This document shows positions 5,911 to 23,446 of a stretch of DNA of 44,620 nucleotides, piece by piece. The stretch comes from a virus. The notes beneath the pieces are model-generated. The model had not been told where the DNA came from. It searched no databases and worked only from the letters and a program-made list of their open reading frames with translations. How positions within the stretch are numbered: the first letter of the stretch is position 1; every line of letters starts with the position of its first letter. The stretch is from positions 1 through 44,620 of the IMG/VR virus record IMGVR_UViG_3300043398_000289; one strand, 5' to 3'. Made by a program: the position numbers and the translations under genes.

Positions 5911-6408
5911 ATGCAGACCCCGTTCGTCACTCAGATCCTCCCGACCAACCCCGACATGCCCGAGAACTCGGCCCGTCTCGCGTCCGAGGCCGTCTCGGCG
6001 TTCGTTCGTGCGGGCTCGGCTAGGTTCACGCTGCTGAACCCGCAGACCGGCAAGCGCTTCACGTACAAGGTCAGCGCGCCGAAGTCGGCCCCGGACAACC
6101 CGCAGCCCGACGACGCGAAGCCGCTCTTCGTCTCGGTCCTCACGGGCTCGGACAACGACTCCGACTACAGCTACCTCGGCGTCATCTTCGCCGACTCCGG
6201 GTTCCGCGTGACGCGCCGCTCGAAGATCTCGCCGGACGCCCCGTCGGCCCTCGCGTTCGGTTGGTTCTGGCGTCGGCTCTCGAGCGGCTCGAGCTTCGAG
6301 CCGTGCGAGGTCTGGCACATGGGCCGGTGTGGTCGTTGTGGTCGCGCCCTGACCGACCCGGAGAGCATCGCCGCTGGCATCGGCCCCAAGTGCGAGGAGA
6401 TGTCGTGA
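5911..6408 (+). CDS. DUF6011-type protein with C-terminal zinc motif
   Basis: A 165-residue protein. The C-terminal VWHMGRCGRCGRALTDPESIAAGIGPKC is typical of the DUF6011 family, with CxxC and a later GPKC Cys that could bind zinc. The N-terminal 120 residues (RFTLLNPQTGKRFTYKV, then YLGVIF) resemble the module that precedes DUF6011 in many phage proteins. Biochemical role unknown. Transcribed from the promoter at 5835; the end overlaps the next gene's GTG (GTGA), coupling it to the cyclotransferase-like gene. Confidence 0.75.
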   Translation: MQTPFVTQILPTNPDMPENSARLASEAVSAFVRAGSARFTLLNPQTGKRFTYKVSAPKSAPDNPQPDDAKPLFVSVLTGSDNDSDYSYLGVIFADSGFRVTRRSKISPDAPSALAFGWFWRRLSSGSSFEPCEVWHMGRCGRCGRALTDPESIAAGIGPKCEEMS

Positions 6409-6905
6409 GTGACCTCGTGACCTATTTCGCGTTCGGCTCGAACATGTCGACGCGACAGATGTTCAACCGGTGCCCGTCGGCCCGTCCGATGGGCACCGGA
6501 GAGCTTCGCGGCTACCACCTCGTGTTCGGCGGTCGCGGGGTCGCGAGCATCGAGCCCCACGAGAGCCGCAAGGTGCATGGCGTCCTGTACGTCATGAAGG
6601 CCGCCGACCTGCTCCAGCTCGATACCTACGAGGGTGTCCCGACCGTGTACCGCCGTTGCTTCCGAAAGGTGGTCGACAAGTTCGGGACCCGCTGGAAGGC
6701 CCACACCTACGTCCTGAACGACGCGGGCCGCTCGAGGCCAGCGGAGAGCTACCTCAGCACCATTCGCGAAGCATACGTGCGATTCAACCTCCCGATCGAG
6801 CCGCTACACCGAGCACTCGAGGACGCCAAGCCTCGCCCTGTCCTGCAGGTGCCCGAGCGCATGAACGACGAGGACATCCGGCGAATGATGATGCGCGTTC
6901 ACTAA
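6405..6905 (+). CDS. AIG2/gamma-glutamylcyclotransferase-like protein 1
   Basis: A 166-residue protein starting at GTG 6405. YFAFGSNMS near the N-terminus is the nucleotide- or substrate-loop signature of the GGCT/AIG2 fold; LDTYEGVPTVYRR supplies the Glu region (YEG) where the catalytic acid of the family lies. Family members release 5-oxoproline from gamma-glutamyl groups. A second homologue sits at 8914-9297 and an amidoligase between them, an association known for Amidoligase_2 systems. Substrate unknown; a gamma-glutamyl or isopeptide-linked product of the amidoligase is a reasonable inference. The C-terminal 50 residues are an extension. Confidence 0.8.
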   Translation: MSDLVTYFAFGSNMSTRQMFNRCPSARPMGTGELRGYHLVFGGRGVASIEPHESRKVHGVLYVMKAADLLQLDTYEGVPTVYRRCFRKVVDKFGTRWKAHTYVLNDAGRSRPAESYLSTIREAYVRFNLPIEPLHRALEDAKPRPVLQVPERMNDEDIRRMMMRVH

Positions 6906-7300: not shown

Positions 7301-8236
7301 ATGACGACCCTCAAGGACATCCGCTTTGGCATCGAGTTGGAGACCGTCGGCCTTTCGATCGAGCGCTGCGTTTCGGTGATCGCGGCTGCGATCCCGGGCT
7401 CGCGTGGCTCGTACGACAAGGTCCGCCTCGCCGATGGTCGCAACTGGTCTTGCGTCCGCGATGGTTCGCTCACCCCGGGCCAGTCCTGCGAGGTCGTCTC
7501 GCCGATCCTCACGTACGCCGACATGGACATGCTGCAGAACATCATCCGCGCACTTCGCGAGGCAGGAGCTAGGGCGGACGATAGCTGCGGGATCCACGTG
7601 CACGTCGACGGTTCGGTGCTCGACGCGCGCTCGATGGCCAACCTCGTCAAGAGCTACAACAAGCAGGAGGATCTCCTGGTCAAGGCGCTCGCGGTCCGCA
7701 GCAATCGTCGCCGGTACTGCAACGCGGTCGATCAGGCCTTCCTTGGCCGTCTCGAGCGCCGCGCCGTCCGTTCGCTGGACGACGTGCGCACGGCTTGGTA
7801 CGGACGCCGCGAGATGCACGTGAGCCGCTACGACGTCTCGCGCTACCACGGGCTCAATCTCAACAGCTTCTTCTACCGTGGCACCGTCGAGTTTCGCCTG
7901 TTCAACGGCTCGATGCACGCTGGCGAGGTCAAGGCGTACGTGAACCTCTGCCTCGCCATGGTGGCCAAGGCCACGCAGATCAAGTCCACCCCGAGCAGCA
8001 AGCGCGAGAGCACGGACGAGACGGCCAAGTACGACATGCGGATGTTCCTCGTGTCCCTGGGCTTCATCGGCGACGAGTTCGAGAGCACGCGCCTTCACCT
8101 CCTCAAGCACCTCAAGGGCTCGGGCGCTCACCGCAACACGACCCGCAACCCCGAGCCGCGCGTGACTCCGCCCGGGATGCGCTGGGTCTTCGGCCGCCTG
8201 ATCCCGGTCGCAGGCCAGGAAGCAACCCAGGCCTGA
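7301..8236 (+). CDS. Amidoligase_2-type enzyme
   Basis: A 311-residue protein of the glutamine-synthetase-fold amidoligase family (Amidoligase_2). Visible signatures in order: FGIELET (metal-binding ExE, residues about 7-13), EVVSP, SCGIHVHVDGS (about residues 94-104) and GTVEFRLFNGSMHAGEVKAYVNL, the late GT-E-R strand with its following helix. Such enzymes use ATP to make amide or isopeptide bonds, and the phage forms often neighbour AIG2-like cyclotransferases, as here on both sides. The substrate could be glutathione-like peptides, cell-wall peptides or a protein tail; the sequence does not say. Own cassette promoter, leader hairpin and Shine-Dalgarno site fix the ATG at 7301, although the frame is open upstream. 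Confidence 0.8.
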   Translation: MTTLKDIRFGIELETVGLSIERCVSVIAAAIPGSRGSYDKVRLADGRNWSCVRDGSLTPGQSCEVVSPILTYADMDMLQNIIRALREAGARADDSCGIHVHVDGSVLDARSMANLVKSYNKQEDLLVKALAVRSNRRRYCNAVDQAFLGRLERRAVRSLDDVRTAWYGRREMHVSRYDVSRYHGLNLNSFFYRGTVEFRLFNGSMHAGEVKAYVNLCLAMVAKATQIKSTPSSKRESTDETAKYDMRMFLVSLGFIGDEFESTRLHLLKHLKGSGAHRNTTRNPEPRVTPPGMRWVFGRLIPVAGQEATQA

Positions 8237-8674: not shown

Positions 8675-8917
8675 GTGACGACCGAGATCACAGACACGAG
8701 CCTTGCGGTTTTCTTGGCCTACGCTCGGGATGCCCGCAACTGGTCTGGAACCCCAATGGTGGGAGGCAACGTCGGCGGAAGCCCGGAGGAACGCGGGAAC
8801 ATCACGCAGTGCAAGCGTGCTGGGTTGTGGATCACGTGGAAGGACGAGGGCTGTACATGGATCCAGTTCACCGAGGCCGGCAAGGCGTTGGCCCTCAAGC
8901 ACGGGATCGAACTGTGA
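8675..8917 (+). CDS. small hypothetical protein
   Basis: An 80-residue protein from a GTG with AGACAGGA as ribosome site. Its C-terminal half (WITWKDEGCTWIQFTEAGKALALKHGIEL) resembles the wing and final helix of small winged-helix phage proteins, and FTEAGKALA matches the common FT-x-G-x-A ending. It overlaps the next gene by GTGA, coupling it to the second cyclotransferase homologue. Confidence 0.6.
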   Translation: MTTEITDTSLAVFLAYARDARNWSGTPMVGGNVGGSPEERGNITQCKRAGLWITWKDEGCTWIQFTEAGKALALKHGIEL

Positions 8918-9297
8918 CCCACCTCGTCTTCGTGTACGGCTCGCTGCTCTCGGGTGAGCACAACCACGGGCTCCTGGGAGGGGCCACGTTTCGCGGCATA
9001 GCGAGCACGTGGCCACACTTCCGCCTCTACGACCTGGGTTCGTTTCCAGGCGTCGTCGAGCACCACAAGGGCCGAGTCATCGTCGGCGAGGTGTATGAGG
9101 TCGACGACGCAACGCTCGCGCGCCTCGACCGGCTCGAGGGACACCCGCGCATGTACGAACGCCGCACGGTCGCGTGCGTCGGCCCGGGTCTTCGCGTGCA
9201 CAAGGCTTGGCTGTACGTCTACAAGGGCCGAGTTCTCGAGCAGGACGAGGTTCGCAGCGGCAACTGGCAACTGCACCGAATGGAGAGGGACCGATGA
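8914..9297 (+). CDS. AIG2/gamma-glutamylcyclotransferase-like protein 2
   Basis: A 127-residue, minimal-length GGCT-fold protein. VFVYGSLLSGEHN is the family YGSL loop; LDRLEGHPRMYERR contains the Glu-Gly-His-Pro motif at the position of the catalytic acid, followed by the typical Tyr-Arg strand; AWLYVYKGR is the closing strand. It is shorter than and divergent from the copy at 6405, so the two probably have different substrates. Start GTG 8914 overlaps the upstream stop. Likely a partner or counter-enzyme of the amidoligase at 7301 (inference). Confidence 0.85.
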   Translation: MTHLVFVYGSLLSGEHNHGLLGGATFRGIASTWPHFRLYDLGSFPGVVEHHKGRVIVGEVYEVDDATLARLDRLEGHPRMYERRTVACVGPGLRVHKAWLYVYKGRVLEQDEVRSGNWQLHRMERDR

Positions 9298-14757: not shown

Positions 14758-16725
14758 ATGACGCTCGCATTCGACAACGAAACATTCCTGATCGGCCAAG
14801 CGCAGGTTGCGCCTCCGCTCGTCTGTGTGTCGTTCACCGATGGCGAAGAGGTCGACGTCGTGCACCGACGCGACCCTGCCGCGTACAGGTTCGCGCGATT
14901 CGCGCTCGAGTCGGAGCACGAGCTTGTTGGGCAGAACGTGCCCTTTGATCTCGCTGTATGGTGCAACGAGTGGCCGGACCTGCTCGATCTTGTGTTCGCG
15001 GCTTACGACGCAGACCGAGTCGTCGACACGATGGTCCGGCAGAAGCTCCTGGACATCGCGCACGGCTGCTATCGTGGCTTCCGCTCCGGATTGACTGGCG
15101 TGTGGATCGAGCACAAGTATCACCTCGCCGACCTCGCGAAGAGACACACGTATCCGGTCGACCTGGACAAAGACACGTGGCGGTTGCGCTACAACGAACT
15201 CGTCGACCTCGACGTAGCCGATTGGCCAGAGGGTGCAGTTGACTACAGCGCACACGATGCGTTGTCGACTTTTCATGTGTGGCGAGCACAAGAAGCCGAA
15301 CGGCGGCTGCTCGATGACCAGTACCGCCAGTGCCGAGCCCATTGGGCTTTGCACCTGATGAGCGCCTGGGGTGTGCGTACTGATCCGGCCATGGTCGACC
15401 GGCTCGAGAAGCTCACGCGCGCCATGCTCGCCGACCACGAGGCGACGCTACTCGAACACAAGCTCATCGAGCCCAAGAAAGCCGGTGGCTTCACCAAGAA
15501 GGTCAAGCGTGCACAGGAGTTCGCGAAGGCCGCTTGGGAGCGCCGAGGCGGAGAGATGGTGCTAACCGACGGCAAGCAGGTCTCGCTGTCAGAGGACGCA
15601 GCCGAGAGGCTCGGAGACCCGGTCATCACGGCGTTTCAGCAGTTCGGCTCCGCGTCGACCATCCTGGCTCGTGTCGAAGAGCTTCGACCGGGGCTCCTGC
15701 ACACGAGGTTTGATGAACTCATGCAGTCTGGCCGGACCTCGAGCAGCAAGCCCAACATCCAGAACCGAGCGGTCGACATCATGGTGCGTCCGCGTTGCGG
15801 ACACAAGGTCAACAAGAAGAAGACTTCTTGTCCCGAGTGCAAGACGCCTTATGAGGTCGCAGGCGACAGAGAGGCGTTCGTGCCTCGCGAGGGCTGTGTG
15901 CTCCTCATGTCCGATGTGCCCGGCCTCGAGCTTCGCACGATAGCCCAGACGTGCGTCAAGATCGTTGGCTACTCGCGCCTCGGCGAGATCTTGAACGCCG
16001 GCCGCGATCCACACATCGAGGTTGCGGCGACGCTGCGCGGAATCTCGCTCGAGGAAGCCTACCGACGCAAGACCGACCCGAACGACACAGACATCTATCT
16101 TGCTCGGCAGACCGGCAAAGTCGTCAACTTCGGTCTCAACGCGCGTCTGGGATGGCGTGGCCTGATCGAGCAGGCTCGCACCAAGTATGGCGTGCTGCTC
16201 AACGAGTACGAGTCGAAGCAAGCCATCGAAGCTTACTACGCGACGCTACCTGAGATGCGCGAGTTCCACAGCTGGGTCGACGGCGAGTGTGCGAACGGCA
16301 TGGGACAAGCGATTCACCTGTTCTCCGGTCGGGTGCAAGGTCTGTTGTCGCCGACCATGATGTCGAATACCTTCTCGCAGGGGCTCGGCGCGGACGCGAC
16401 CAAGGCCGCCCTCTACGAACTCGCCCGCGTGTGCTACGTCGGCAGAGGCCAACCGCTATACGGCTCGCGCTCCGTCAACTACGTGCACGACGATTATCAC
16501 GTCGAGACGCTCGAGGAGAACCTCGACGCCAAGAGCGAGCAGATGGCCGATGTGATCTGCACCGAGATCAACAAGTGGCTGCCTGACGTTCCCGTGCCGC
16601 GTGACGAGATGCGGCCAATCGCGGCTCGCCGTTGGAGCAAGAAGGCCAAGCGCGAACTGAACCCTAACGGCACACTCGCCGTATGGGAGTGGCAAGAGTG
16701 GATCAGACAGCAGGAGGAACGATGA
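14758..16725 (+). CDS. dpoZ: family A DNA polymerase with 3'-5' exonuclease (candidate DpoZ)
   Basis: A 655-residue replicative polymerase. Exonuclease motifs: FDNETF (residues 5-10), GQNVPFDLAV (about 58-67) and DYSAHDAL (about 162). Polymerase motifs: SDVPGLELRTIAQ (motif A, about 385), RQTGKVVNFGLNARLG (motif B/O-helix, about 450) and VHDDYH (motif C, about 576). There is no 5' nuclease domain. A four-Cys insert (CGHK then CPEC, about residues 346-361) sits between the template-binding QSGRTSSSKPNIQN motif and motif A. PurZ-type phages commonly carry a PolA-like DpoZ that accepts dZTP, and PurZ/MazZ-like genes lie 0.8-3.6 kb downstream; the DpoZ label rests on that context. No Shine-Dalgarno site: the start abuts the tRNA-like fold. 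Confidence 0.85.
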   Translation: MTLAFDNETFLIGQAQVAPPLVCVSFTDGEEVDVVHRRDPAAYRFARFALESEHELVGQNVPFDLAVWCNEWPDLLDLVFAAYDADRVVDTMVRQKLLDIAHGCYRGFRSGLTGVWIEHKYHLADLAKRHTYPVDLDKDTWRLRYNELVDLDVADWPEGAVDYSAHDALSTFHVWRAQEAERRLLDDQYRQCRAHWALHLMSAWGVRTDPAMVDRLEKLTRAMLADHEATLLEHKLIEPKKAGGFTKKVKRAQEFAKAAWERRGGEMVLTDGKQVSLSEDAAERLGDPVITAFQQFGSASTILARVEELRPGLLHTRFDELMQSGRTSSSKPNIQNRAVDIMVRPRCGHKVNKKKTSCPECKTPYEVAGDREAFVPREGCVLLMSDVPGLELRTIAQTCVKIVGYSRLGEILNAGRDPHIEVAATLRGISLEEAYRRKTDPNDTDIYLARQTGKVVNFGLNARLGWRGLIEQARTKYGVLLNEYESKQAIEAYYATLPEMREFHSWVDGECANGMGQAIHLFSGRVQGLLSPTMMSNTFSQGLGADATKAALYELARVCYVGRGQPLYGSRSVNYVHDDYHVETLEENLDAKSEQMADVICTEINKWLPDVPVPRDEMRPIAARRWSKKAKRELNPNGTLAVWEWQEWIRQQEER

Positions 16726-17566: not shown

Positions 17567-19150
17567 ATGCTGATTGTTCTTTCGGGTGAGATCGCGTCGG
17601 GCAAGTCGACGCTCGCGCAGACAATGAGCCAGCGAGGCTGGACGGTCATCAAGACACGCGAGGTCATCGAGGCCATGTTCGCCCAGCGCAACGGCGGGCG
17701 AGCGCCGAAGGATCGACCCGAGTTCCAGGCGTTCGGCGACCACCTCGACGAGAACGTCCCGACGTGGCTCTCGACGGCTGCGATCGCCCAATCCCTCACA
17801 GGTGCGAACCTCGTCATCGACTCGGTGCGCCGAGAGGACCAGATCGAGTCACTGCGCGAGGTCTTCGGTCGCGTGGTCCACGTGCACCTCGAGGCGGAGC
17901 CCGGATCGCTGCGCGAGCGGTTCGAGAAGCGCGGAGACATCGACAACTACGAGCGCATCAAGGCCCAGCGCACCGAAGCCCAGGTCAACAACCTGCGGTC
18001 GATCGCCGATCTCGTCGTCAACACCTCGAGGAGCGAACCGCGCGACGTAGAGGTCAGACTCGATGCGTTCCTGAACCGCTCCGAGGTCACGCCGTGCGTT
18101 GACGTGGTCATCGGTGGCCAGTACGGCTCGGAGGGCAAGGGCCACGTGGTCTCGCACATCGCGCACGAGTACGATGCTCTCGTTCGCGTCGGCGGACCGA
18201 ACGCAGGGCACACGGTACTGCGCCCGGACAACGGCGAGAAGGTGAGCTTCTACCACATCCCGTCCGGAGCGCTGCACAGCCCACGAGCCATCCTGATCCT
18301 CGGCCCGGGAGCGGTCATCAACCCCAAGGTCCTCGAGAAGGAAGCGCAGTACCTCGGAGGGCTCGAGAAGCTGCGCGGACGACTCATGATCGACCCGCAG
18401 GCCAACGTGATCTCGGAGGACGACATCGCGAACGAGGCGGGCCTCGTGGCGTCGGTCGGTTCGACTGGTCAGGGCGTCGGAGTCGCAACCGCACGCAAGA
18501 TCGTGGAGCGCGGAACGCGCAAGCTCGCTCGCGACTGCGAGATGCTCAAGCCCTTCATGCGGCCCTCGCTCGAGATCCTCGACTACGCGTACAGGACAGG
18601 CGTCCGCGTGATGCTCGAGGGAACACAGGGAACCGGTCTGTCGCTGCACCATGGCCACTACCCGTATGTGACCTCGAGGGACACGACGGCGTCCGGAACG
18701 GCAGGCGAGGCGGGCATCCCGCCGCGTCGGATCCGCAAGGTGATCGTGGTCGTCAGGACCAACCCGATCCGCGTGCAGAGCCCGCCCGGTGGAACGAGCG
18801 GACCGATGGGTCGCGAGACGACGTGGGAGGAGATCAGCAAGCGAGCCGGTGTGCCCGCCGACGAGCTTCGCCTCAAGGAGATGACCACAACGACGAAGAG
18901 GCAGCGTCGCGTGGCCGAGTTCAACTGGCAGGACCTCCACAGGGCGACGATGCTGAACGGACCCACCGACATCGCGTTGACCTTCGTCGATTACATCGAC
19001 CACGCGAATCAGAGCGCGCGCCGCTACGAGCAACTGACCCCCGAGACGCTGCGGTTCATCGAGGAGGTCGAGCGCGTCGCTGCGTGCCCGGTCTCGCTCA
19101 TCACGACCCGCTTCCACAAGCGCTCAATCATCGATCGGAGGGCCTGGTGA
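17567..19150 (+). CDS. purZ: nucleotide-kinase-like domain fused to PurZ (N6-succino-2-amino-2'-deoxyadenylate synthase)
   Basis: A 527-residue fusion. Residues 1 to about 170 are a P-loop kinase-like domain (LSGEIASGKST at 6-15, LVIDSVRRE, LRERFEKRG lid-like segment). Residues about 178-527 are adenylosuccinate-synthetase-like: GGQYGSEGKG (Ser188 replaces the catalytic Asp of PurA), GGPNAGHT (His215 kept), GSTGQGVG, EGTQGTGLSLHHGHYPYVTSRDTT, GGTSGPMGRET and the C-terminal ITTRFHKR. Known PurZ enzymes join Asp to dGMP, giving the precursor that host PurB converts to dZMP. The fused kinase could act on dGMP or dZMP (inference). Ribosome site GAGGTGAG; it is followed by a GTGA-coupled pair of genes. 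Confidence 0.9.
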   Translation: MLIVLSGEIASGKSTLAQTMSQRGWTVIKTREVIEAMFAQRNGGRAPKDRPEFQAFGDHLDENVPTWLSTAAIAQSLTGANLVIDSVRREDQIESLREVFGRVVHVHLEAEPGSLRERFEKRGDIDNYERIKAQRTEAQVNNLRSIADLVVNTSRSEPRDVEVRLDAFLNRSEVTPCVDVVIGGQYGSEGKGHVVSHIAHEYDALVRVGGPNAGHTVLRPDNGEKVSFYHIPSGALHSPRAILILGPGAVINPKVLEKEAQYLGGLEKLRGRLMIDPQANVISEDDIANEAGLVASVGSTGQGVGVATARKIVERGTRKLARDCEMLKPFMRPSLEILDYAYRTGVRVMLEGTQGTGLSLHHGHYPYVTSRDTTASGTAGEAGIPPRRIRKVIVVVRTNPIRVQSPPGGTSGPMGRETTWEEISKRAGVPADELRLKEMTTTTKRQRRVAEFNWQDLHRATMLNGPTDIALTFVDYIDHANQSARRYEQLTPETLRFIEEVERVAACPVSLITTRFHKRSIIDRRAW

Positions 19151-19521
19151 GCAGCATCAAGGACTTGGTCGCGAAGATCAACGGGCTCGAAGCCGACGTC
19201 AACGAGAAGGGCGAGAGGCTCAGGCTCGCGGCAACGCGGAAAGAGCAGGCGGAGAGCCTGATCCGCAGAAATGACCTCGCGCTCTCGAACGCCTGCGAGA
19301 AGCTGCGTAAGAGCCTTTCCGAGGGCAAAGAGCCCGAGGAGCGGCTCGAGATCGCGGCGGAGATCGAGGCCGCCGAGAAGTGCAAGGGCGAGCTTGCTCT
19401 CGACCTGCAGCGCGCACGCGCCGAGTACGGAACGGCGGAATCGCTGGTCACCAAGGCGCGCGAGGCGTACACAGAGGCAACGGCGCTGCTCGAGAAGCGG
19501 CTCGCAGGAGGCGGCAAGTGA
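19147..19521 (+). CDS. coiled-coil hypothetical protein
   Basis: A 124-residue, highly charged, almost wholly helical protein (KINGLEADVNEKGERLRLAATRKEQAESL through LEKRLAGGGK) with heptad-like spacing throughout. Overlaps the purZ stop and the start of the MazZ-like gene (GTGA on both sides), so it is made with them. It may be a scaffold for the nucleotide enzymes or be unrelated; no motif indicates function. Confidence 0.6.
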   Translation: MSSIKDLVAKINGLEADVNEKGERLRLAATRKEQAESLIRRNDLALSNACEKLRKSLSEGKEPEERLEIAAEIEAAEKCKGELALDLQRARAEYGTAESLVTKAREAYTEATALLEKRLAGGGK

Positions 19522-20288
19522 AGGGGCTTCGCGTCTACGTCGCCGGTCCGGTCAACGGATCCGGCAAGCAGAACGGCAACGCGGCTCGCGCGCTCGAGGC
19601 CGCACATCTCCTGCAGGCTCGCGGCTTCGTGCCGTTCGTGCCGCACCTGTACTGGCTGTGGAGCTTCGCTCATCCCGAGTACACGGAGGAGTTCTGGCTC
19701 TCGCAGTGCAAGTCGTGGCTGCTGATGTGCGACGCCATGATCAGACTTCCGGGAGCGAGCCCCGGTTCCGACTTCGAAGAGAGCATCGCGCTCGAGGCCG
19801 GAATCCCGGTGTTCAAGGTGCAGCCGAACGAGCCCGGCGATCACCTCGTCCCGGCCCGCAACTTCATCGCCTGGGCCGAGCACAGGGGTGCGAAGCGCTT
19901 GGTTGGTCCGGAGCGGAACCGCGTTGACTACGCCGCACTCGACGTGTTCCAGGCGAGCGTGTCCGAGTGGCTCAAGAAGCAGCCCTTCTACCCGCAGAAG
20001 CCACATCAGCCGCTCATCGGGATCCAGGAGGAGCTCGGGGAGCTTTCGCACGCTCACCTCAAGAGCGAGCAGGGCATTCGAGGGACGGCGGAAGAGCACC
20101 ATGAGGCCAAGCGAGACGCGATCGGCGACATCCTCGTGTACATCGCCGGGTACTGCGAGGCGAACGGGCTGCAGATGGGCCAGTGCCTCGAACGAGCCTG
20201 GGAAGAGGTCCGCCAGAGGGATTGGAACAAGAACCGCTCGACCGGTGCTGTGTCCGCCCCTGGCCCGTACTCGGAGAAGAGCAAGTGA
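19518..20288 (+). CDS. mazZ: deoxyribosyltransferase-like domain fused to MazG-like (MazZ-type) pyrophosphatase
   Basis: A 256-residue fusion. Residues 1-105 match the nucleoside 2-deoxyribosyltransferase / DUF4406 fold: VYVAGPVNG at the start, MIRLPGASPGSDFEESIALEAGIPVF with the acid-rich helix. Residues about 165-236 are an all-alpha NTP pyrophosphohydrolase: IQEELGELSHA (Glu171, 172, 175), then EAKRDAIGDILVYI (Glu196, Asp200, Asp204) for Mg binding. In Z-genome phages MazZ turns dGTP into dGMP, the PurZ substrate. The N-terminal domain could cleave dNMP glycosidic bonds, as relatives of the DNPH1 type do; removing dAMP would help exclude A, but this is inference. Confidence 0.8.
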   Translation: MKGLRVYVAGPVNGSGKQNGNAARALEAAHLLQARGFVPFVPHLYWLWSFAHPEYTEEFWLSQCKSWLLMCDAMIRLPGASPGSDFEESIALEAGIPVFKVQPNEPGDHLVPARNFIAWAEHRGAKRLVGPERNRVDYAALDVFQASVSEWLKKQPFYPQKPHQPLIGIQEELGELSHAHLKSEQGIRGTAEEHHEAKRDAIGDILVYIAGYCEANGLQMGQCLERAWEEVRQRDWNKNRSTGAVSAPGPYSEKSK

Positions 20289-21076
20289 CGCTGGCCCTCA
20301 AGCGCAAGATCGAGATCCCCCGAGGCCAGTGTGCGGCGCAAGGCTGCCAACGCAAGACCGGACTATCGCCGGTCGATGTCGAGCATCGTGGGAAGAGCAC
20401 AACACTCGACGTCTGCGACAAGCACATTCTCGAGGTCGTCTCTCCTGATCTACGAGGCCCCGGCATCCTCGAGGGTGATCGAGACGGCCGAGGGCCAGAC
20501 GCCACCGAACCGGTGCAGGCAGCTGCACAGGCAGAAGTGGCCGAGGCCAACGAAGCTCTCACTGTGGCTCGCGACGTCGAGATCTCGTCAGCAGAAGACG
20601 AGGCTTTCGTCGCCGAGCTTCTCGCAGAAGTCAAGGGCAAGAACAAGCGCCTCGAGGAGATGAAGCAAGCCGCGCTTCGCCCGATGCGCGAGACGATCAA
20701 GACGATCCAGTCTTGGTTCGAGCCTGCACAAGCTGCGTACGCGCAGATGGAGTCGCTGCTCAAGGGGCGCGTCATCGAGTACCGAGCCAAGCTCGAGGAT
20801 CAGCGACGCGCCGCACTTCGCGCGATGCAGGCAGGAGAGACGCCGCAAGAAGTCTCCGTTGCCATCGTCGCGCTCAAGCAGGCACAAGCTCCCACGACCG
20901 AGGGAATCTCGGTCCGCAGGGTGTGGTCGTTCGAGATCGTCGACGCGTCGAAGGTCCCGGTCGACTTCATGTCGGTTGACTCTGGCAAGATCCGAGCGGC
21001 TGTGTCGTCCGGAGTCCGAGAGATCAACGGAGTTCGGATCTTCGAGCAGGAGATCGTCGCCTCGAGGTCGTCATGA
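20285..21076 (+). CDS. coiled-coil protein with N-terminal Cys/His motif
   Basis: A 263-residue protein. CAAQGC ... CDKH within the first 45 residues could bind zinc (C-x4-C and C-x2-H). The centre (EVAEANEALTVARDVEIS to LKGRVIEYRAKLEDQRRAALRAMQAG) is a long coiled coil; the end (EGISVRRVWSFEIVDASKVPVDFMSVDSGKIRAAVSSG) is the pattern seen in phage DUF1351-like or recombination-associated proteins. The role is probably DNA metabolism. GTGA overlap with mazZ; ATGA overlap with the next gene. Confidence 0.6.
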   Translation: MTLALKRKIEIPRGQCAAQGCQRKTGLSPVDVEHRGKSTTLDVCDKHILEVVSPDLRGPGILEGDRDGRGPDATEPVQAAAQAEVAEANEALTVARDVEISSAEDEAFVAELLAEVKGKNKRLEEMKQAALRPMRETIKTIQSWFEPAQAAYAQMESLLKGRVIEYRAKLEDQRRAALRAMQAGETPQEVSVAIVALKQAQAPTTEGISVRRVWSFEIVDASKVPVDFMSVDSGKIRAAVSSGVREINGVRIFEQEIVASRSS

Positions 21077-21789
21077 GCAGAATCCTGATCCTCACACCCG
21101 ATCGCAACAGTCCTCCAAAGCGAGACTTCGACGGAGCCTTCAAACCCGAATCGGTCCGCCTATCTGGTGGGCTCGTGGCGAAGGGACACCAAACCAAGAT
21201 CGAGCGTGTTTCGGTTCCGGTCGTCGACCCGAAGACACTGCAGATCGACTCGATCGAGAAGCAACGGCAGTTCTCGGAAGCGGCGTTCACCGTGAACCGA
21301 TCGATTCAAGACTTCAAGCCAAACATCGTCGTCATGATGTGCCATGGGTGGGCAACAGGCCTGCAGCTTGGTTTCAGGTCGGCGAAGCAGCGCGGGTTCG
21401 ACAAACAGGCATTCAATTCGCTGTGCGTGTCGCTGACGGCGGCCAACGTCGACCACGTGGTTTTGTTTGCTTGTTCGGCCGGTGACGAGCCAGGCAGCGA
21501 CAAGACAAGCCCCGGGACCGGTGACGACTCAATCGCAGACAAGATTCGTGACCTGGCGGACGTCTCAGTGCTCTCGCACTGGACGGTCGGACACACGACG
21601 CGAAACCCGGACCTGATTTTCTTCGAGCAGGGCCGCACAGCCGGGGGGATCGCGTTTCCCTCCCGGGGGACGCAGGCGTACCGGAATGCCTTGTCCTTGC
21701 TCAAGACCCCGGCCGGCCTCGCCGATGTCGTGTTGTGTCGGTCGGTCCTCGAACTCCGGGAGTTGTTCGCAGGGACACAACAGACCTGA
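21073..21789 (+). CDS. caspase/CHAT-like putative cysteine peptidase
   Basis: A 238-residue alpha/beta protein. VVMMCHGWATG (His91) and HVVLFACSAGDEPG (Cys134) reproduce the His-Gly and Cys of clan CD peptidases; the LFACSAG strand and the preceding ACHG-like strand closely resemble CHAT and caspase-like folds. Between Cys134 and the C-terminus, DDSIADKIRDLADVSVLSHWTVG is a typical helix-strand unit. It is the last gene of the rightward arm, just before the terminator. A peptidase acting on host or phage proteins (anti-defence, or maturation) is possible; activity is not established. Confidence 0.6.
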   Translation: MSRILILTPDRNSPPKRDFDGAFKPESVRLSGGLVAKGHQTKIERVSVPVVDPKTLQIDSIEKQRQFSEAAFTVNRSIQDFKPNIVVMMCHGWATGLQLGFRSAKQRGFDKQAFNSLCVSLTAANVDHVVLFACSAGDEPGSDKTSPGTGDDSIADKIRDLADVSVLSHWTVGHTTRNPDLIFFEQGRTAGGIAFPSRGTQAYRNALSLLKTPAGLADVVLCRSVLELRELFAGTQQT

Positions 21790-22569: not shown

Positions 22570-22871
22570 CTTGTCCCCTCAAGCCTTTCGACTCGTTGCG
22601 AGAGTGTATCGATCGCCTCGAGCCTGCGACCGAGGATGTAGCTCGCGCCGAGTAGTCCGCCGAACACGGACACGACGACAGAGAACGAGCCCACGGCGAC
22701 GGTCGCGATCATCCAGACACCGATCCGCTCCATGCGACGGAGTCTGTGGTCGGTCAGGAGCGAAACCACGTTGAGCTTGCGGATCGAGTTCTCGGGGCTC
22801 GAAACCGGCTCGCTCATCGCGTTACGGACTTGGCCCGTGAGGTCGTCGTCGAGGTCAAGTGTCGTACTCAT
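22566..22871 (-). CDS. single-span membrane protein, lysis-associated
   Basis: A 101-residue protein: charged N-terminal half ([26 protein letters not shown]), one membrane span ([29 protein letters not shown]) and a short C-terminal coiled-coil helix ([15 protein letters not shown]). This resembles XhlA-like or inner-membrane spanin/antiholin proteins. ATGA overlap with the next gene. Confidence 0.55.
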
Positions 22872-23446
22872 GGGATCGGCCCTCCGTTGAGCGAGACGAG
22901 GAGAGCAGCCATCCTGAGTAGGCAGTCCTCCATGTTCGACGGGTCATTCGTCGCCCATGTCCCACCGGGCCAGTTGGACGGGAGCGCGCCAGGTTCGCCC
23001 TGCGGTCCCTGCGGACCATCCGGGCCGATCGCACCCGCTGGGCCTTCTGGGCCTGGATCACCCTGCGGCCCCGGAGGTCCGCCCGGATCGCCCTGTGGTC
23101 CCTGCGGCCCCGCCGGACCCTCTGGACCCTGTGGGCCCTCGGGACCCTGTGGACCTGGCGGTCCTTCTGGTCCGCCCGGGGGGCCTTGAGGCCCCTCGGG
23201 GCCTTGAGGCCCCTCGGGGCCTTGCGGTCCCCCCGGTCCTTCGGGGCCAGGGTTGCCATCGGGACCTTGTGGCCCCTGCGGACCATCCGGGCCGATCGGA
23301 CCCTGTGGCCCCTGCGCTCCGATGTCGACGAAACGCGCCGCGTCGTTGGGTCCGACAGGGGCGGCGAGGTTCGCGATCGGTTGGCCGCCGAGATCGAGCG
23401 GAGCGGTCATCGGCCATGCGCCGTCTGTGCGTAGAGCGCGGGGCAT
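22868..23446 (-). CDS. collagen-like tail fibre protein
   Basis: A 192-residue protein. The N-terminus [26 protein letters not shown] is the usual attachment motif of phage fibres; residues about 44-155 are collagen-type Gly-X-Y triplets ([10 protein letters not shown] style) expected to form a trimeric rod. The C-terminal 38 residues ([29 protein letters not shown]) match the end of the neighbouring fibre gene. The DNA is strongly repetitive here (about 22980-23320), a possible site of slippage between strains. Confidence 0.85.

Follow-up and report, generated by a model that had tools for sequence, protein, structure and literature searches.

A kinase-fused PurZ-type enzyme in an uncultured virus and in a bacterial and archaeal gene cassette

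Does the uncultured virus recorded as IMGVR_UViG_3300043398_000289 make 2-aminoadenine (Z) nucleotides and, if so, does it put them into its own DNA? The question is raised by an open reading frame (ORF) at 17567-19150 on the plus strand of this record, which was analyzed over its whole 44,620 bases (the window; the record may be incomplete) and which encodes a protein of 527 amino acids with two domains, a P-loop kinase (about residues 1-172) and a PurA-fold domain (about residues 174-527), here termed kinase-PurZ. Z is a base substitution of phages that alters base-pair hydrogen bonding throughout the genome, and sequence reads do not distinguish it from A. The best reading, held at a probability of roughly 0.5, is that this bifunctional enzyme both synthesizes Z nucleotides and phosphorylates them, that they are destined for phage DNA, and that no Z-selective polymerase (DpoZ) takes part.

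The fusion and its place among PurA-like enzymes

Pfam Adenylsucc_synt matches the ORF with an E-value of 2.1e-54, with kinase matches (AAA_18/AAA_33) at the N-terminus. An AlphaFold model of the fusion (pLDDT 92.7) resembles, in its second domain, Pyrococcus PurA (Z-score 46; the closest solved structure), PurZ0 (42) and phiVC8 PurZ (41), and in its first domain 3lw7, an AMP-bound adenylate-kinase-related protein (Z-score 19.6); the kinship of this first domain to adenylate kinases is one reason for the preferred reading. These E-values, the model matches and a clade support of 100/100 (below) argue against chance similarity. A tblastn search of phages with the kinase domain alone gave no match, and PADLOC returned a partial dCTPase match on it. 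Anti-phage dCTP deaminases of the AvcD type likewise join a weakly similar N-terminal kinase-like P-loop domain to a nucleotide-converting domain, but their second domain is a deaminase, whereas that of the window protein is PurZ-like.

The preliminary description of this DNA had proposed that Ser 188 in GSEGKG replaces the catalytic Asp of PurA within an otherwise present adenylosuccinate synthetase core; residue mapping in a real ORF confirmed the former, the Pfam and fold matches the latter. Mapped on the PurZ of phage S-2L, with the roles of the residues taken from PMC8342488, Ser 188 (context QYGSEGKG), Ser 299 and Thr 440 correspond to S23, S131 and T273, positions at which PurA has Asp, Thr and Gly. 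Asp 475, in the nucleoside-triphosphate base site (Q308 in S-2L), is the residue of PurA and PurZ0, whereas the PurZ group has Gln or Asn there; judged by this residue, GTP rather than ATP is predicted to be, probably, the donor of the PurZ domain.

Two trees were made, with support given as value pairs for one and as single values for the larger. PurA forms one clade at 100/100, and the window domain lies outside it, on a Ser-type side of the root supported at 93/70; in the larger tree the separation from PurA has a support of 100. The PurZ of known Z-phages and PurZ0 are two separate clades, and the window domain belongs to neither; it sits in a further clade at 100/100 together with cellular and viral kinase-fusion homologues, where it is the sister of virus L021 with moderate support (90/77), the remaining members standing apart at 92/91. 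A serine replaces the catalytic Asp in all kinase-PurZ homologues in which the motif was read. The tree proposed earlier as a check thus placed the protein with Ser-type enzymes outside PurA as anticipated, but in neither phage group and with cellular nearest relatives. In the wide sense of the name, which asks for Ser in place of Asp and separation from PurA, the protein has both marks, and judged by sequence kinase-PurZ is a third PurZ lineage, an undescribed kinase-fused form of Ser type, apart from PurA, PurZ and PurZ0. This grouping, together with Ser 188, Ser 299 and Thr 440, is a further reason for the preferred reading; domain identities, serine active site, clade and operon are direct observations.

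The PurZ of phiVC8, SH-Ab 15497 and S-2L (PMC8342488), to which the window domain is 27-33% identical, shares with it the PurA fold, the Ser for Asp and the two further Ser/Thr positions, but the window protein differs in its ATP base site, where Asp replaces Asn/Gln, and in having an N-terminal kinase and a clade of its own, with no DatZ found. PurZ0 of Wayne-like and Ghobes-like phages (PMC12884076; 31-38% identity) has in common the Ser active site, the base-site Asp and pool enzymes in the operon, but it forms a separate clade, and in the window no DutZ was found and NDT is fused to MazG instead of a dUTPase.

The NCBIfam PurZ model NF038379 gives 212 bits, below its cut-off of 300; the highest NCBIfam score, 282 bits, comes from the archaeal-type PurA model PRK04293 and is likewise below that model's cut-off. 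These scores, the PurA-like Asp 475 and the closeness of the Pyrococcus PurA structure would fit an accessory PurA that converts IMP to adenylosuccinate and increases the adenine supply. Such a role is highly improbable in view of the serine found in every motif read and the position in the tree; moreover, canonical PurA is already present in 14 of the 15 host genomes checked (a search of the remaining one, which is small, yielded none), so that kinase-PurZ is not a housekeeping copy.

Operon partners and the polymerase

The window carries its tail-sheath, portal and terminase genes on the minus strand and those for replication on the opposite, plus strand; kinase-PurZ stands among the replication genes both here and in virus L024. 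Four-base overlaps at every junction make the genes from 17567 to 21789 look translationally coupled (Table 1). The "fusion enzymes" of the preliminary description both exist, and the partners it had left unnamed are the adenylate-kinase-like domain and an NDT/DUF4406-like domain. The MazG-like domain that it had placed two genes further on in the same coupled operon is there, with EELGE followed by DAIGD (EExxE and an acidic second motif), as is the PolA-like polymerase about 0.8 kb upstream. The protein between both enzymes gave no Pfam match. A nucleotide search of the window against phages gave no match, and no cultured phage with kinase-PurZ was found in the phage collection.

Table 1. 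Features of the window and of the related cellular cassette.
Feature	Position	Strand	Basis
N-terminal adenylate-kinase-like domain of the kinase-PurZ fusion (Walker A GEIASGKST)	17567..18085	+	Pfam AAA_18/AAA_33; model matches 3lw7
PurZ-type domain of the fusion (Ser188 in GSEGKG, Ser299, Thr440, Asp475)	18086..19150	+	Pfam, residue mapping, tree, fold
124-aa protein between both enzymes, 4-base overlap with each	19147..19521	+	
NDT-like/DUF4406 domain (residues 1-105) fused to MazG-like domain (about 141-235)	19518..20288	+	PHROG 355 and 715, Pfam DUF4406
Family A DNA polymerase with exonuclease domain; helix-O residue not of DpoZ type	14758..16725	+	Pfam DNA_pol_A, DNA_pol_A_exo1
Coupled gene	20285..21076	+	PHROG exonuclease match
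Coupled gene, no assigned function	21073..21789	+	
Conserved cassette IrrE/M78-macro, kinase-PurZ, DUF7002	e.g. L114:3962-7721, L104:4012-7730		

Within about 5.5 kb the window encodes an enzyme of PurZ type, a MazG domain and a polymerase of family A, which would suggest the full canonical pathway, in which MazZ, PurZ and a Z-selective DpoZ completely replace adenine. Phe in helix O, however, is a mutation common to both DpoZ clades (PMC8599892), whereas the window polymerase has Ala at this position (NFGLNARLG), and its closest relative is the polymerase of the complete phage MW202816, which carries an N6-adenine methyltransferase and no PurZ; on these two grounds it was rejected as a DpoZ, and the earlier suggestion that a DpoZ incorporates Z here was not upheld. 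The MazG domain, moreover, is not clearly a MazZ: it aligns with S-2L MazZ at an E-value of 0.008 and 18.7% identity, too weakly to place the guanine-specific residues. DatZ was matched in the window, a possibly incomplete record, neither by tblastn nor by a local profile, which detected the distant HD protein of L002 only weakly; DutZ was found neither by tblastn nor by Pfam dUTPase or local profiles, nor DmtZ by tblastn and local profiles. The canonical pathway is accordingly a distinctly unlikely account, and of the gene set once matched to it a PurZ-type enzyme and an unspecific MazG in one operon stand, while DpoZ falls away. S-2L itself makes its Z genome with a non-selective polymerase when dATP is removed (PMC8342488), so the absence of DpoZ is compatible with Z in the window virus. 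A different virus (L036, record G015) has an early-branching PurZ and a polymerase (L179) whose helix-O residue is the Phe of DpoZ, and its MazG shares 46% identity with the window MazG domain; it is a good candidate for a Z genome.

The neighboring fusion was also examined as a marker of Z. A PurA/PurZ-type gene accompanies relatives of the window MazG in five of 16 viral records, or 2/13 without the three seed viruses; the family is commoner in viruses without PurZ, and MazG was rejected as a specific marker. What is supported in the earlier proposal of a MazZ is a MazG-type pyrophosphohydrolase domain. The pairing of NDT and MazG is not Z-specific either, since the complete phage MW202554 (L005, 6309-7117) has a MazG gene side by side with a DUF4406 gene, 52% identical to the window NDT domain, and no PurZ; as a marker the pairing is weakened. 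In the NDT domain Tyr 7 and Glu 87 are present, but Cys 64 stands where the DmtZ triad of Tyr, Asn and Glu has its Asn, a position usually held by Asp elsewhere in the NDT superfamily (PMC12884076), and a DmtZ profile did not detect the domain. These results on polymerase, dATP- and dUTP-hydrolyzing enzymes, MazG and NDT, together with the NCBIfam scores above and the fact that the closest relatives belong to cells in which Z is not a known constituent of the DNA, weigh against the preferred reading.

On the other hand, the NDT-MazG fusion follows kinase-PurZ directly in virus L021 and lies beside or near it in L023, which speaks for that reading; the bacterial locus L131 offers a looser parallel, and scans of viral contigs for NDT-MazG returned L021 only, or nothing. 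Phage Wayne has a fusion of DmtZ, of NDT type, with DutZ, of dUTPase type, which turns dATP into adenine (PMC12884076). In both systems a domain of the NDT superfamily is joined to a hydrolase that releases pyrophosphate from dNTPs, beside a PurZ gene, although the window hydrolase is MazG and not a dUTPase, and the catalytic Asn is Cys. By this analogy the window NDT-MazG is suggested to be a convergent counterpart of DmtZ-DutZ, subject to the caveat of Cys 64.

Elsewhere in the window lie an amidoligase gene and two gamma-glutamyl cyclotransferase-like genes (7301-8236, 6405-6905, 8914-9297) and, on the minus strand, an ORF with collagen-like Gly-X-Y repeats (22868-23446) that is probably part of a tail fibre.

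A cellular cassette built around the same enzyme

The nearest relatives of the window kinase-PurZ are cellular proteins listed publicly as adenylosuccinate synthetase, 50-60% identical to it and found in bacteria and archaea. In a scan of one genome per species, loci L100-L178 were picked by similarity to the window and to phage PurZ, with mechanical gene calls; these 79 best loci (74 bacterial, five archaeal) span 13 phyla, and the kinase domain was detected in nearly all. They share with the window the two-domain architecture, GSEGKG and the 100/100 clade. DUF7002 follows kinase-PurZ in 79/79 loci, a count that covers the closest relatives only, given how the loci were chosen, whereas the window has no DUF7002. 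An IrrE/M78-macrodomain protein was detected nearby in 58 of the 79, usually ahead of kinase-PurZ. Named strains with such loci are Terriglobus roseus DSM 18391, Sphingomonas sp. Leaf20 and Sorangium cellulosum So ce26, and the cassette reaches conjugative rhizobial plasmids. Its distribution is patchy: among 200 Sphingomonadaceae genomes nine match, four of them strongly and at full length. More distant kinase-PurZ relatives in three genomes of this family (G109, G154, G222) match across one TAG in long open frames, by recoding, decay or assembly error.

The model of DUF7002 (pLDDT 97) matches first DarT1 (Foldseek E-value 3e-4, probability 0.99) and then other ADP-ribosyltransferases; with TM-scores as low as about 0.35-0.39, the likeness to DarT is a hint at the level of the fold. 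PADLOC gave no match on DUF7002 (L101, L114) and partial matches to capP and DarG on the IrrE-macro protein, whose macro part bears a weak likeness to DarG. The neighbors of the cassette include genes for restriction and integrases as well as genes of the AbiJ or RelA/SpoT type. A literature search, with most subscription papers outside it, found no paper describing the cassette and none that mentions DUF7002, a family without a described function. The cassette has the look of a conflict module, not described before, that draws on Z chemistry.

In three actinobacteria two divergent genes border the cassette, one for a second PurB and one of MazG/PRA-PH type (L155:2006-3890, L163:1592-3756, L166:2029-3887). 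The second PurB scores 348-367 bits, over the purB cut-off, against 409-458 bits for the main PurB of the same genomes, and the cassette copies are 39-46% identical among themselves and 26-33% to the main PurB. A dedicated PurB and a MazG-like gene in this place are circumstantial evidence for a succino-nucleotide product that needs a lyase, and as the expected neighboring steps they favor the preferred reading. In viruses, a PurB-like gene lies directly upstream of a non-fused PurZ in L026 (6426-9074), and an annotated PurB is also present in Streptomyces phage Galactica, which has PurZ0.

The cassette raises the possibility that Z nucleotides serve in conflict, whether to signal, to poison or to shield, aimed perhaps at a host ADP-ribosyltransferase cassette or at other phages, while the phage DNA is ordinary ATGC. 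That the nearest relatives are linked to a protein with a fold like that of DarT and to one with a macrodomain is consistent with this, as are the window's want of a detected dedicated polymerase or dATP hydrolase and viruses G002, G003 and G004, which have kinase-PurZ and no Pol A seen (these records are possibly fragmentary, and G003 resembles a prophage). However, the phage copies stand among replication genes, with neither DUF7002 nor an IrrE-macro partner, which also counts among the reasons for the preferred reading, and the presence of NDT-MazG in their operon suggests bulk work on the nucleotide pool. A conflict product is thus possible though rather unlikely.

A proposed route to Z and its implications

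For phage DNA, the preferred reading would run as follows. MazG would convert dGTP to dGMP, and perhaps dATP to its monophosphate as well; the PurZ domain would join dGMP and aspartate to N6-succino-2-amino-dAMP (succino-dZMP), probably at the expense of GTP; and a PurB lyase, presumably that of the host, would release dZMP. The fused adenylate-kinase-like domain would then yield dZDP, and host enzymes dZTP. Removal of dAMP may fall to the NDT domain, much as DmtZ-DutZ, which is unrelated, removes it in Wayne, and the non-DpoZ polymerase would use dZTP in replication, so that Z would replace all or part of the adenine. All substrates and products are predicted from the families concerned, and Z in the DNA is plausible. 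For Z-containing DNA in the window virus the odds are about even, and lower for full replacement of adenine; a DNA with little or no adenine, as envisaged earlier, is possible.

If the preferred reading is true, a PurZ lineage with a built-in kinase supplies the step from dZMP to dZDP that has so far been left to host enzymes. Kinase-PurZ occurs across 13 phyla in the company of macrodomain proteins and others that resemble DarT, which raises the question whether cells make 2-aminoadenine nucleotides, and for what purpose. As the nearest relatives belong to a bacterial and archaeal cassette and not to known Z-phages, Z chemistry may extend beyond phages. Tentatively, kinase-PurZ may be the core of a cellular conflict module (with DarT-like DUF7002, IrrE-macro and sometimes PurB/MazG), and phages may share the enzyme for their own Z DNA; if so, Z biosynthesis would be a trait exchanged between cells and phages.
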